This document shows, piece after piece, positions 7,316 to 10,659 of a DNA stretch of 62,472 nucleotides (position 1 is its first letter; each line of letters starts with the position of its first letter). The translations under genes were made by a program, and so were the position numbers. The stretch is from Bryobacteraceae bacterium (lineage in GTDB: Bacteria; Acidobacteriota; Terriglobia; Bryobacterales; Bryobacteraceae), in assembly GCA_028275505.1 (NCBI GenBank), contig JAPWUP010000003.1, positions 1 to 62,472 on the forward strand, read 5' to 3'. Under the pieces are notes generated by a model. It saw only the letters and a list, made by a program, of their open reading frames with translations, did not search any database and was not told where the DNA came from.

Positions 7316-7957
7316 TCAGTTCACCAGCCCGGCTCGCACCGCGAAGCGCACCAGTTCGCTGACGCTGTGGACGTTCAGCTTCTCCATGATCCGCCCGCGG
7401 TGGGCGTCCACGGTGTAAACGCTCAAATTGAGGGCAGCGGCGATCTCCTTGTTGGTCTTGCCCTCAGCGATGAGTTGCAGAACTTCCCGTTCGCGCGGGG
7501 TGAGCAGATCCAGGGGATCGCTGACGTGCCTCCGATAATCGCTGAGTACCGCTTCCGACACGGCAGGGCTCAAATAGCCCTCCCCTGCCGCCACGGCGCG
7601 CACCGCGGCTACCAGGTCCCGGTCAATGGCGTCCTTGAGCAGATATCCCCGCGCCCCGGCACGCAGAATCTCGCGCACGTAGACCGAATCCTTGTACATG
7701 CTCAGCGCCAGCACACGGGTGCGTGGCGCCAGCTCCGCCAGACGGCGCGTCGCTTCGATCCCGTTCATCTCGGGCATCGCCACATCCATGACCACCACGT
7801 CGGGACGCAGCTTCTCGGCCAGTTCCACGGTCTCGCGCCCGTTGCCGGCCTCGCCCACAATCTCGATGTCGGGCTGCGAAGACAGAATCAATCGGAAGCC
7901 CTGCCGCACCAGAGCGTGATCATCGGCGAGCAAGACCCGGATCTTTTTCTTCGTCAT
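7316..7957 (-). CDS. NarL/FixJ-family response regulator
   Basis: A 213-residue two-component regulator. The receiver domain (about 6-122) has the acidic pair 'ADDH', the phospho-acceptor Asp58 in 'VVVMDVAMPEMNG', and the conserved lysine in 'GYLLKDA'. The LuxR-type helix-turn-helix (about 145-205) carries 'LTPREREVLQLIAEGKTNKEIA' in two parts: 'LTPREREVLQLIAEG' and 'TNKEIAAALNLSVYTV'. Start ATG 7957 is supported by GAGGGG 7 bases upstream. Its first 38 bases overlap the end of the histidine kinase gene, so kinase and regulator are translated as a pair. Phosphorylation by that kinase should promote DNA binding. Confidence 0.93.
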   Translation of the reverse strand: MTKKKIRVLLADDHALVRQGFRLILSSQPDIEIVGEAGNGRETVELAEKLRPDVVVMDVAMPEMNGIEATRRLAELAPRTRVLALSMYKDSVYVREILRAGARGYLLKDAIDRDLVAAVRAVAAGEGYLSPAVSEAVLSDYRRHVSDPLDLLTPREREVLQLIAEGKTNKEIAAALNLSVYTVDAHRGRIMEKLNVHSVSELVRFAVRAGLVN

Positions 7958-9353
7958 GGCGTACCCCTCGCGCCGGGACGCGAACCTCAATGCACAGGCC
8001 GCCTCCCGGTTGATTGGAGAAGCGCACTTCGCCGCCGGCGCTGCGTGCCCGCGCCCGCATTCCGATCAGGCCGAGACCCTGGCGCAGGACGGAGTCGTCC
8101 GCGGGAAGGCCGCGGCCGTTGTCGGCGATCACGACCCGTACCTCGTCCCCCGCTTGCCGCAGTTGGATCCTGACCCGGTTGGCGCCCGAATGACGCGCAA
8201 CGTTGGTCAAAGCTTCCTGGCAGATGCGAAACAGGTGAGTCTCCACCTCCTCGGGCAGGCGCCCTTTGAAATTCGACTCGTACTCCACTTCGATGCCGGT
8301 GCGCTGCATGAAGCCTTCCGCCAGCCAGCGAAGGCCGGCGTCCAGACCGAAATCATCCAGGATGGTGGGGTGCAAGAGCTGGGAGAGTTCGCGCACGTTC
8401 TGGATGGCCCGGTCCACCGCCGCCACGCAGTCCTCCACCCGCCCGTTGGCGCCGGGCTGGGTGCGCAGGGCCAGCAGGTTCGCTTTCACCGCCGTCAGGG
8501 ACTGGCCCAGCTCGTCGTGGAGTTCGTGCGAGAAACGGCGCGCCACGGTTTCCTGGTTCTCCAGCAGGTGCCATGAAACGCGGCTCAGCTCGCTAGCCTG
8601 GGCCTCGAGTTTCTGCAACATGCTCGCGGCCAGCCGTACCGTCAGCCCTGCACAGACCAGGGCCAGCAACAACGAACTGCCGAGCAGCGCGATGGAGTTC
8701 CGCAGAAGCTCGCGGGAACGTTCCTGGATCTGCTGCTTGGCGCTGGCAGCCTTGGCATAGCTGGCGGCAGCCAGCCGGGCCACCAGGGCCAGGGCCTCCT
8801 CGTGCCGCCGGAACAAGTCGCGCGACAGCAGCGTGGAAGGATTTTCCTGCGCCAGCAGCCGCCGGGCCTCGGCCGAAAAGGCATTGGAGGCCCGCTTGAG
8901 CTCGTTCCAAAGCGGTTCCTCAGGCGTCCCGGCTACCGAAGCGCTGATCTCCTCCAGCCGGTCGTCCGCCTCGTCCAGCTCGCTCAGGATCTTCTCCTTG
9001 TCCTCCAGCTCGGGCCCGCGCGAGAGCTTCCGGAACACCGCGCTCAGGGCCGCCTGCTCGCGTTGGACGTCTTCGAGCAACCGGGTCGCCACCAGCTCCT
9101 GGCTCGCCAGCCGGTCCGCACTGTCCCGAATCGAGCGGATGTTTTCCACAGCGACGAAGCCGGCGGCCACCAAGAGGGCGATGACGAGCAAAAAACCGGC
9201 CAGCAGGACGCGGAAGATGGTCCTCGGCGTGACTTCGCCGCTGGTGAACAACACTACTCCCCTTATCATTTTGGCCCGACTCAGCGCGGCAAGCCATCGC
9301 CCCGGCAGGCTATCCCGCCATCCCTCGGTCCGGGGTGTCAGCGCGCCACTCAT
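7920..9353 (-). CDS. sensor histidine kinase, NarX/DegS type (HisKA_3)
   Basis: A 477-residue membrane kinase. Transmembrane helices are at about 46-69 ('LLAGFLLVIALLVAAGFVAV') and 220-242. They enclose an extracytoplasmic, mostly helical sensor region of about 150 residues resembling a four-helix-bundle (CHASE3-like) input. The HisKA_3 box 'FSHELHDELGQSLTAVKANL' places the phosphorylated histidine at about His279. The ATPase domain shows the N box 'ALTNVARHSGANRV', the G1 box 'VIADNGRGLP' and the G2 box 'GLGLIGMRARARSAGG'. Start at ATG 9353 is the longest; ATG 9269 is an alternative giving 449 residues. The ligand is unknown. It partners with the overlapping response regulator gene. Confidence 0.92.
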   Translation of the reverse strand: MSGALTPRTEGWRDSLPGRWLAALSRAKMIRGVVLFTSGEVTPRTIFRVLLAGFLLVIALLVAAGFVAVENIRSIRDSADRLASQELVATRLLEDVQREQAALSAVFRKLSRGPELEDKEKILSELDEADDRLEEISASVAGTPEEPLWNELKRASNAFSAEARRLLAQENPSTLLSRDLFRRHEEALALVARLAAASYAKAASAKQQIQERSRELLRNSIALLGSSLLLALVCAGLTVRLAASMLQKLEAQASELSRVSWHLLENQETVARRFSHELHDELGQSLTAVKANLLALRTQPGANGRVEDCVAAVDRAIQNVRELSQLLHPTILDDFGLDAGLRWLAEGFMQRTGIEVEYESNFKGRLPEEVETHLFRICQEALTNVARHSGANRVRIQLRQAGDEVRVVIADNGRGLPADDSVLRQGLGLIGMRARARSAGGEVRFSNQPGGGLCIEVRVPARGVRHDEEKDPGLARR

Positions 9354-9425
9354 CCCTTAACAAGGGTACCCCCATTAGCCTCCCGAGGCGATAGGCCCCC
9401 GGAGGCCTGCTGCGCCATCATGAAA

Positions 9426-9451
9426 GTGTCGTAGGTGAAACCCTTCGACAC
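9426..9451 (+). promoter_or_regulatory. leader hairpin abutting the ribosome binding site
   Basis: GTGTCG (9426-9431) pairs with CGACAC (9446-9451). Inside, after a single T-T mismatch, AGG pairs with CCT around a 6-base loop. The stem ends directly against the strong Shine-Dalgarno AGGAGG at 9452-9457 of the small lysine-rich gene. Such placement could tune or sense conditions at translation initiation. No promoter was convincingly identified upstream. Confidence 0.5.
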
Positions 9452-9464
9452 AGGAGGTTAACTT

Positions 9465-9635
9465 ATGAAGAAGCTGATCGTTGCGTTGGTTGCGGGCGCC
9501 CTGAGCCTGCCGGTGTTTGCTCAGCAGGCGACTGGCCAGTCCACGCAAGAGCAGACCAAGCAGCAAACCAAGAAGAGGTCTTCGAAGAAGAGCAAGGCCG
9601 AAGAGCAAAAGAAGGAAGAGAAGAAGACCCCGTAA
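9465..9635 (+). CDS. small exported lysine/glutamine-rich protein, 56 aa
   Basis: A short gene with a textbook ribosome binding site: AGGAGG at 9452-9457, 7 bases before the ATG. Residues 1-19 form a signal peptide ('MKKLIVALVAGALSLPVFA', predicted cleavage before QQ). The mature part is about 37 residues, rich in Lys, Glu, Gln, Ser and Thr, with no Cys or aromatic residue. It includes 'KKRSSKKSKAEEQKKEEKK', so it is probably disordered and charged. It stops with TAA and is followed 30 bases later by a strong terminator, so it is a self-contained transcription unit. Function is unknown; similar short, highly charged exported peptides are common in this group of bacteria but poorly studied. 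Confidence 0.75.
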   Translation: MKKLIVALVAGALSLPVFAQQATGQSTQEQTKQQTKKRSSKKSKAEEQKKEEKKTP

Positions 9636-9665
9636 TCTCTCGTCCCCTTCCCTCCGCAATCCCGC

Positions 9666-9706
9666 GCGCCCCTGCCTTCCCCCAAAGGCAGGGGCGCTTT
9701 GCTTTT
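9666..9706 (+). terminator. rho-independent terminator after the small exported-protein gene
   Basis: A perfect 13-bp inverted repeat (9666-9678 with 9685-9697) surrounds a 6-base loop and is followed by TTTGCTTTT. It also lies just past the stop of the convergent aldo/keto reductase gene. Confidence 0.88.
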
Positions 9707-9714
9707 AGTGTCTT

Positions 9715-10659
9715 TTAGTCAGTAGGGCCGCGTAACGCTCCCCAGTCGGCAGCTTTCGCCTTGCCCCGGGCCATGATCCGCGCCATTTCCTCCGCGTCGA
9801 GGGGTCGAAACTCACGCGCGGCAGCCAGGGCCTGCCGCAGCTCCTGGTTGTTGCGCATCCCGATCACCGCCACCGCGACCTGCGGAACGCTCCAGACGTA
9901 GCGCAGCGTGTCGCGGTAGTCCTCCGGGGAAGCCAAACGCGGTTCGGAGCCGCGTTGCGGGTCTCCCAACACCTTCATTGCCGCCACTCCGATTCCCCTT
10001 TTGGCCGCCTCCGGCAACACCCGTTCCTCGAAGTTATAAATGTGCCGCTCCACGAAATTGATCGTGCACATGAACAGTTCGATTGCGCCCGTGGCGAAAA
10101 CCGGCAGTACGCGACCAGGCCGCAGGTGAGCCGTGCAGCCGACGTGTCGCGTCATCCCCTTTCTCTTGGCTTCAAGCAATCCGCCCAGCACGCCATCTTC
10201 GGAAAGCGCCGCCTGCAAGTCAGGGAAGCGATCGTCCCGGGCGATGTTGTGAATGTGGACGCAATCTACGTAGTCCGTGCGCAGGCGTCGCAGGCTCTCT
10301 TCCAGATCGCGCAAAGCGCCCTCACGCGTGGCGGAGCGGGTCTTGGTGACGAGAAAGACCTTGTGCCGCTTGCCCGCCAAGGCGCGGCCCAGCTTGTCCT
10401 CGGAGTCGCCGTAGCCGCGGGCCGTGTCTATGTAGTTCAGCCCGTTGTCCAGCGCTTCCCCGATCAGGCGGTCCACCGCCGATTGTTCCATCGGCTGGTC
10501 GGCGATGCGCTGCGCTCCCAGGCCGAGGATGGATACCTGAAAGCCGATCTTGCCCAGCGGACGCGTCGGCAAGCCGCTGCTCGCCGAGCCGGACCCGGCG
10601 GTCAAAACGCCCGCGGTCACCAGATGTGAAAACTCACGACGCGTGTATTGGTGGTGCAT
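9715..10659 (-). CDS. aldo/keto reductase
   Basis: A 314-residue NAD(P)H-dependent oxidoreductase of the AKR barrel family. The N-terminus 'TRREFSHLVTAG' looks like a Tat or lipoprotein-less export signal, but this is weak. Catalytic tetrad positions are visible: Asp and Tyr in 'YIDTARGYGDSE', Lys in 'VFLVTKT', and His in 'CVHIHNI'. The C-terminal region 'VAVIGMRNNQELRQAL' belongs to the cofactor-binding end. The protein ends near residue 314 and lacks the C-terminal 4Fe-4S ferredoxin extension found in some related AKRs. GGAGGG lies upstream of the ATG. The substrate is unknown. Confidence 0.88.
   Translation of the reverse strand: MHHQYTRREFSHLVTAGVLTAGSGSASSGLPTRPLGKIGFQVSILGLGAQRIADQPMEQSAVDRLIGEALDNGLNYIDTARGYGDSEDKLGRALAGKRHKVFLVTKTRSATREGALRDLEESLRRLRTDYVDCVHIHNIARDDRFPDLQAALSEDGVLGGLLEAKRKGMTRHVGCTAHLRPGRVLPVFATGAIELFMCTINFVERHIYNFEERVLPEAAKRGIGVAAMKVLGDPQRGSEPRLASPEDYRDTLRYVWSVPQVAVAVIGMRNNQELRQALAAAREFRPLDAEEMARIMARGKAKAADWGALRGPTD

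Follow-up and report, generated by a model that had tools for sequence, protein, structure and literature searches.

Comparative evidence indicates that a 56-residue open reading frame (ORF) in a Bryobacteraceae genome is a real gene, and we found that it is probably the dedicated output of the two-component system encoded beside it, activated by the adjacent regulator and giving rise to an exported polycation of the cell envelope. The stretch of DNA analysed, 62,472 nucleotides in all, is referred to here as the window. Conserved coding, linkage to the kinase and regulator genes, a candidate operator, its spacing to a promoter element, and pairing in a leader hairpin are the parts of this proposal supported by comparison of related loci. 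As far as the operator tells, these genes appear to form a real, lineage-specific two-component module with a single dedicated output. A sequence-only reading had called the small gene self-contained. Biologically it is not, as it is part of a kinase-regulator module.

The small gene lies at 9465 to 9635 on the forward strand. Its translation consists of a signal peptide-like start (MKKLIVALVAGALSLPVFAQ, approximately residues 1 to 19) and a lysine-rich, low-complexity tail of K/E/Q-rich composition, with K, E, Q, T, and S as its residues. The charged frame with an exported-type start thus stands as the sequence-only reading had described it. No other ORF in the 62-kb window, on either strand, passed a filter for a signal peptide, a K-rich tail, and a Shine-Dalgarno (SD) sequence. 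The 3' neighbor of the small gene, in convergent orientation, encodes an aldo/keto reductase.

The small gene is divergent from a two-component system

In the window, the small gene is divergent from a kinase and regulator gene pair. The sensor histidine kinase (7920 to approximately 9254, reverse strand) carries 4HB_MCP_1 sensor, HisKA_3, and HATPase_c domains. The gene for the NarL/LuxR-type response regulator (7316 to 7990, reverse strand) overlaps the kinase gene, and its product carries Response_reg and GerE domains. With domain E-values of 6.9e-28 and 1.6e-23 for the regulator and 2.2e-08 and 1.4e-15 for the kinase, the pair has the composition of a NarL/FixJ-type system (Response_reg plus GerE; HisKA_3/HATPase_c). 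We propose that the kinase starts at the GTG at 9254 rather than at the mechanically called ATG at 9353, because the latter would place a second operator and its -10 element, described below, inside the kinase gene; conservation of the kinase N-terminus among orthologs was also used in this choice.

The linkage extends well beyond the window. We fetched 107 regions upstream of kinase orthologs, one per genome and most of them in a single family, and found a divergent mini-gene encoding a signal peptide and a lysine-rich tail in 62; the genomes are related, so this and the following counts are not independent. The gene was absent from the searched interval in the other 45 regions; a contig end truncates two of these (L061 and L163), and in a third, L057, such a gene lies farther out. 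Among kinase matches with E ≤ 1e-40, 53 of 66 had the divergent small gene, and the truncated L061 is one of the 13 without it. A uniform ORF filter, which also matches one locus lacking a K-rich tail of this kind (L131) and misses two (L070 and L170), found candidates on the divergent strand in 58 of the 107 regions and on the opposite strand in 2 of the 107.

Statistics were computed on 59 loci picked by hand for a divergent ORF with a signal peptide, K-richness, and an SD; the operator and hairpin were not used for picking. L078, L155, L157, L158, and L160 were left out as not K-rich, L070 was added by hand, the start of L072 was moved, and the atypical L170 was kept. Three loci recognised later (L148, L150, and L152) count among the 62 of 107 and stand outside the 59-locus statistics. 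Several of the null models are plain letter shuffles (operator scoring, second-site count, terminators, and mirror promoter), and dinucleotide shuffles were used for best-stem scores.

The kinase system looks mainly, not wholly, family-level. Its N-terminus was matched in 36 of 101 relatives (E ≤ 1e-8) and in 125 of 237 genomes of the family (E ≤ 1e-15). With a different ortholog as the query, 3 of 396 genomes in a phylum-wide sample matched (E ≤ 1e-20), including the window's own genome and another family member. Matches outside the family were found in G081, G068, and G461. On a tree of 46 of the 107 kinases, presence and absence of the small gene required 7 changes, compared with a mean of 11.6 after shuffling. 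Spread by plasmid was considered and rejected, as no match was found.

Several loci depart from the common arrangement. In four of seven regions from genus g47 (L155, L158, L160, and L078), the kinase faces an outer-membrane efflux-type ORF in place of the small gene; the one such ORF tested, from L155, matches PF02321 at 1.3e-14, and no facing efflux-type ORF was shown in L157, L159, or L162. In L063 and L064 the divergent protein is longer (107 to 108 amino acids) with an extra C-terminal part; the operator is kept in both, and the L064 protein matched no Pfam or NCBIfam model above cut-off. In G219 (L181 reverse strand, around position 409), a K-rich signal-peptide ORF lies 5' of the kinase in the same direction. 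The window's own genome also encodes a paralogous regulator (G000:C29:9033-9656, L200) that is 65% identical to the linked one; neither an exact operator nor a K-rich ORF was found in the 3160 bases examined there.

The product is a candidate envelope polycation

The mature parts of the 59 proteins contain 619 K and 29 R, and all 59 are net positive. On average, V, I, L, M, F, W, Y, and C together account for a fraction of 0.04 of these parts, and 48 of the 59 lack C, W, Y, and F; these figures rest on signal peptides and cleavage sites assigned by a simple rule, not a dedicated predictor, at loci that had been picked for K-richness. The tails range from K/E/Q to K/T/S/A types, which suggests that charge is kept while tail sequence drifts. 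The tail is so poorly conserved that homology outside the signal peptide is weak, and the likeness in composition may reflect convergence.

In kind, the closest known counterpart is Asr, although the cut-off of its model is not reached. Asr, an enterobacterial acid shock protein, is short and lysine-rich with a signal peptide, and the small protein resembles it in being short and lysine-rich with a signal peptide-like start. A signal peptide followed by a lysine-rich mature part of low hydrophobicity recurs across the 59 loci, which were selected for such features. Unlike Asr, however, the proteins here come from a different phylum and score far under the cut-off of the Asr model, NF033636: the best score was 14.6 bits (E 0.044; the other was 13.9) against a cut-off of 50, and the model was listed at E ≤ 1 for two of seven relatives scanned, for which it was the top-listed NCBIfam model. 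For the window protein, it was absent from the matches at E ≤ 0.1. We know of no Asr divergently encoded with a NarL-type system. Asr has been described as a periplasmic, intrinsically disordered chaperone that supports outer-membrane integrity and as strongly induced at pH 4.4 (PMC10746267). By analogy, our reasoned guess is that the product is an exported, disordered lysine-rich polycation that protects against acid or envelope stress.

Small exported proteins divergent from two-component systems offer a second comparison. Like CpxP with CpxRA, ZraP is a small exported protein divergent from, and controlled by, ZraSR, and the divergence that CpxP/CpxRA and ZraP/ZraSR exemplify was found here, for a small predicted-exported protein, in the window and in 62 of 107 kinase regions. 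However, both of those proteins fold into helical structures and bear LTxxQ motifs, whereas the tail here is low-complexity and Lys-rich, and their systems use OmpR- and NtrC-type regulators, whereas the regulator here is NarL-type. The CpxP/Spy/ZraP (LTxxQ) Pfam family was absent for the window protein and nine others at E ≤ 1. More generally, the window protein matched no Pfam or NCBIfam model at cut-off, and its scanned relatives never reached the cut-off of a model in either collection. We therefore rejected membership in Asr, CpxP-like, or any other scanned family, all models being below cut-off or unmatched. A literature search, which tests absence from print only weakly, found no paper on such a system.

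Feedback on the kinase is the main rival to an envelope-protectant function. The small protein might act mainly as a regulator of its own kinase, in the manner of CpxP/CpxA or MgrB/PhoQ: induced by the regulator and exported, it would bind the acidic sensor bundle and shut the kinase off. We give this reading a minority share of our confidence. A nearly single-locus operator and the divergent arrangement would suit it, and so would charge, as 10 of 11 kinase orthologs have a sensor segment of negative net charge (0 in the other one) and the small proteins are uniformly positive. Published precedent includes CpxP, an inhibitor of CpxA whose gene is divergent in V. cholerae (PMC6737893). MgrB is a 47-amino-acid membrane protein that is a product of the PhoQ system's own regulon and inhibits the kinase; unlike MgrB, the proteins here appear by a simple rule to have a cleavable signal peptide and a soluble tail. 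Against the feedback reading, the freely varying tail points to an effect of charge more than to specific recognition, the small gene is not adjacent to a kinase in G034, and no CpxP/Spy or MgrB model was among the listed matches. A more speculative version, which we hold to be unlikely but worth stating, is that the protein, as a nearly sequence-free lysine polycation, is a charge-coded signal. Through its acidic sensor bundle, the inducing kinase would sense electrostatically how much of the polycation is present in the periplasm, or its binding state there. If so, the cell would gauge the anionic charge or acidity of its envelope through a disposable reporter and not through a folded accessory protein.

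A conserved inverted repeat precedes the small gene

Outside the span that the sequence-only reading had covered, side-by-side comparison of leaders revealed an inverted repeat, TAGCC-TCCCGA-GGCGA (9376 to 9391, forward strand; consensus TAGCC-N6-GGC(T/G)A), which is a candidate site for the adjacent response regulator. The right arm is GGCTA in relatives and GGCGA in the window's genus. The repeat scored at least 10 of 13 in 51 of 59 loci, vs 0.35 of 59 expected from letter shuffles, and below 10 in the remaining 8; among loci fetched after the motif had been noticed, 31 of 38 scored at least 10. A -10-like element, CATCAT (9416 to 9421, forward strand), follows the operator by 24 nt. In 47 of the 51 loci, a (C/T)ANN(A/C)T box lies 23 nt (38 loci) or 24 nt (9 loci) after the operator (sd 0.39), a count made with no shuffle control, for which arithmetic predicts about 1 in 10 by chance over the six offsets scanned. 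The box had been widened from (C/T)ANNAT after the sequences were viewed; the narrow form occurs at 23 and 24 nt in 31 and 6 loci and at 28 nt in one. The distance from operator to ATG is variable (83 to 107 nt, sd 5.96).

The operator looks like a DNA site for a protein, because its arms change without compensation: of 255 cells, 0 were compensatory, 23 unpaired, and 5 G-U. For this reason, and because its distance to the -10-like box hardly varies, we rejected the idea that the inverted repeat acts as RNA. The observed geometry is a 16-bp inverted repeat followed at 23 to 24 nt by a -10-like box. If the spacer has its usual length of 17 nt, the operator would sit against the predicted -35 position, with its center at approximately -43.5 from the predicted start site. 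No conserved -35 box was found in the small-gene promoter among the relatives compared.

This geometry recalls that of a NarL-activated promoter. NarL half-sites have the consensus TACYYMT. Here, by contrast, the core is TAGCC-N6-GGCTA, and all 51 operators (frequency 1.0) have G as the third base of their left half, which departs from that consensus. E. coli NarL activates ogt from 7-2-7 sites (16 bp) centered at -44.5 and -77.5, one of which abuts the -35 (PMC7419079). Like ogt, the small gene would have a 16-bp inverted repeat at the -35 position, given the predicted start, plus a second upstream site: in the small-gene direction, a second site upstream of the first scored at least 8 of 10 in 26 of 59 loci, with 4.4% expected from shuffles.

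The exact 13-base pattern is rare. It occurred 27 times in 101 genomes, and a reversed control occurred 17 times (summed columns). Eleven of the 27 were upstream of the small gene, and the other 16 were elsewhere, approximately the number predicted by the control. A genome-wide, REP-like repeat was therefore rejected, since the excess over the control is approximately the number at the small gene. Ten of those 11 genomes have a kinase match; the exception is G050, where the small gene is at a contig end. At that locus (L092), which has the exact operator, the signal peptide and the K-rich tail are in different frames, owing to a frame shift or an assembly error. The GGCGATRG form of the window's genus had 8 matches in 3 genomes (control, 0), of which 4 were at the small-gene locus (all 3 genomes, twice in the window's) and 4 were inside long open frames. 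In G027, the small gene and its exact operator lie beyond the regulator gene and convergent with it. In G034, they lie approximately 147 kb from the stronger kinase match on the same contig, and a weaker kinase match with the nearest regulator is on another contig, so that more than one system is a candidate there. That the exact operator stays with the non-divergent small gene in both genomes argues that the operator serves the small gene.

The kinase gene may be under the same control. In the window, a second operator, TAGCC-TGCCGG-GGCGA (9297 to 9312, reverse strand), faces the kinase gene, and CAAAAT (9268 to 9273, reverse strand), the -10-like element of a putative kinase promoter, follows it by 23 nt. 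Such a mirror promoter, scoring at least 7 of 10 with a -10-like box at 22 to 25 nt, was found in 11 of 48 loci (1% of shuffles), and the spacing was 23 nt in 9 of the 11; the remaining loci of the 59 lacked any combination of an operator and a -10-like box. Because mirror operator and -10 copies exceed shuffles, autoregulation is likely in some lineages and weaker or absent in others.

Which regulator binds the operator? The adjacent one is the likely candidate. It is improbable, in our estimate, that the repeat is instead the site of a non-neighboring regulator and that the neighborhood reflects a shared stress regulon. The genomes do encode several paralogs of this regulator type (in G000, 5 were found at E ≤ 1e-30, including the linked one). 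However, few operator copies exist beyond the control level, which argues for a dedicated local regulator, and the kinase promoter itself carries the mirror copy in the window. The suggestion from the sequence-only reading that the small gene is conditionally expressed gains support from the operator-like repeat, its near-fixed spacing to the -10-like box, and the adjoining two-component system.

A leader stem is kept by position and pairing

The leader hairpin, GTGTCG-t-AGG-tgaaac-CCT-t-CGACAC (9426 to 9451, forward strand), probably begins at or within a few nucleotides of the mRNA 5' end. Its outer stem pairs 9426-9431 with 9446-9451, its inner stem pairs AGG at 9433-9435 with CCT at 9442-9444, and it abuts the SD, as the sequence-only reading had described. 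By itself, the window hairpin does not exceed chance: its stem score was reached by 8 of 100 dinucleotide shuffles, and folding z-scores were -1.75 for 53 nt and -0.56 for 77 nt.

Across loci the picture is stronger. The mean best-stem score of the 59 loci was 14.58, whereas dinucleotide shuffles gave 9.73 (sd of the mean 0.50); the per-locus p was ≤ 0.05 in 33 of 59 and not in the other 26. The stem sequences vary (GTGTCG/CGACAC, TGGATC/GATCCA, GGCGGC/GCCGCC, ACCGTGG/CCACGGT, GAGGGC/GCCCTC, GCGGGC/GCCCGC, and others). When partner strands were swapped between genera (one locus per genus, n = 29), own partners scored 14.93 vs 9.60 for swapped ones (sd 0.81), with 0 of 5000 swaps as high; when the GCGGG type was removed (n = 17), the scores were 12.79 vs 6.88 (sd 1.22), again with 0 of 5000. 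The swap test includes two zero scores, one of which is the window, whose stem lies approximately 6 nt earlier than usual and scored 0 in this fixed-position test. The leader stem thus appears to be kept by position and pairing, not by sequence, across genera, with the window's stem shifted and individually weak. Loss of the frame or the hairpin in close relatives would have refuted the sequence-only reading, and this was not observed: both same-genus genomes have a stem near the same place, but a different one (weak in L053, reached by 18 of 100 shuffles). Pairing is maintained across genera, but the particular hairpin sequence is not kept.

In most relatives, the stem leaves the SD open. The mean unpaired probability of the SD was 0.73, vs 0.64 with shuffled leaders, in the 53 of 59 loci with a recognised SD. 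Only 2 of the 53, the window among them, had a mean below 0.3, and a general SD-hiding switch was therefore rejected. Stems in 5' untranslated regions are known to stabilise mRNA, in one case under acidic and osmotic stress, and the same review notes that a stem placed too near the SD can make the mRNA less stable (PMC7509114). Because the 5' stem leaves the SD open, protection of the mRNA 5' end from decay is a fitting role, and by analogy probably the one it has.

We consider it very unlikely that the inverted repeat acts jointly with the hairpin as an RNA regulator (a riboswitch or thermosensor), in place of a DNA operator and a protective stem. The window leader (9426 to 9476) does have two equally stable folds (-13.6 kcal/mol each), and in one of them the SD and start codon are paired. 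A 117-nt segment extending over the operator region is also more stable than 200 of 200 shuffles (z -3.3). However, the operator arms do not covary, their spacing to the -10-like box is near-fixed over variable sequence, and the SD is mostly unpaired. Furthermore, Rfam gave 0 matches at the gathering score in the window, and at E ≤ 1 two weak matches in 9240 to 9720.

Two genomes from a different family within the class, at L014 (approximately 1341 to 1510) and L019 (reverse complement, approximately 1390 to 1530), encode different K-rich exported mini-proteins. They share the leader GGTCTCTCACGTGC and have ACGGAGGTTGCRACCAA just before the start, with a GGTTGCRACC palindrome overlapping the SD. 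Proteins of this kind may have this as a second type of leader.

Translation signals, coding conservation, and terminator

The SD, AGGAGG (9452 to 9457, forward strand), lies 7 nt before the ATG, and the positions of SD and start are conserved across many genera. An intrinsic terminator (9666 to 9697, forward strand) has a 13-bp stem and a T-rich tail (TTTGCTTTTA), with a folding energy of -30.2 kcal/mol, a stability equalled in 0 of 200 shuffles. The ribosome binding site and terminator of the sequence-only reading were therefore confirmed. Its remark that the ORF is too short for usual gene calling is doubtful: at 171 nt, it exceeds the 90 nt that common gene finders already accept. The reading had also made its case depend on conservation of the frame in close relatives, and both same-genus genomes carry the ORF, at 53 and 56% identity in the search alignment and 39 and 50% over the full length. 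In 17 of 17 ortholog pairs dN was below dS, showing that the ORF evolves as a protein, and 3' of the orthologs strong stems exceeded the 95th percentile of letter shuffles in 35 of 58 loci. A chance open frame between two genes, as might be suspected of a short, low-complexity ORF with no family model at cut-off, is contradicted by the dN/dS result, the conserved SD and start position, and the strong 3' stems, and we give it almost no credence.

A proposed module

We propose that the kinase senses an envelope signal through its periplasmic four-helix bundle and in response phosphorylates the NarL-type regulator. A regulator dimer would bind TAGCC-N6-GGC(T/G)A just upstream of the -35 (centered at approximately -43.5 if transcription starts 7 nt after the -10-like box) and activate a small-gene promoter that has no conserved -35 box, while in the window the mirror-image site with its 23-nt spacing would serve the kinase operon and provide autoregulation. 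The mRNA would carry a hairpin at or close to its start, which in most of the relatives examined does not occlude the SD and which would protect the 5' end from decay, and would end at its own terminator, which would make it monocistronic and suited to high output. Once exported, the product would function in the envelope as a lysine-rich, disordered polycation and might damp the kinase as well. In this scheme, binding of the operator by the regulator, the direction of control, the start site, mRNA protection, and the disorder and function of the protein are steps that we infer.

Significance

Acidobacteriota are abundant in soil, and we know of few regulatory circuits in this phylum. The module described here would be nearly complete and testable, with one gene as its output: a kinase, a regulator, an operator, a promoter geometry, a leader stem, and a protein conserved in charge more than in sequence. 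Because the scanned family models did not recognise these proteins, the operator and the gene neighborhood may serve as the way to find them.
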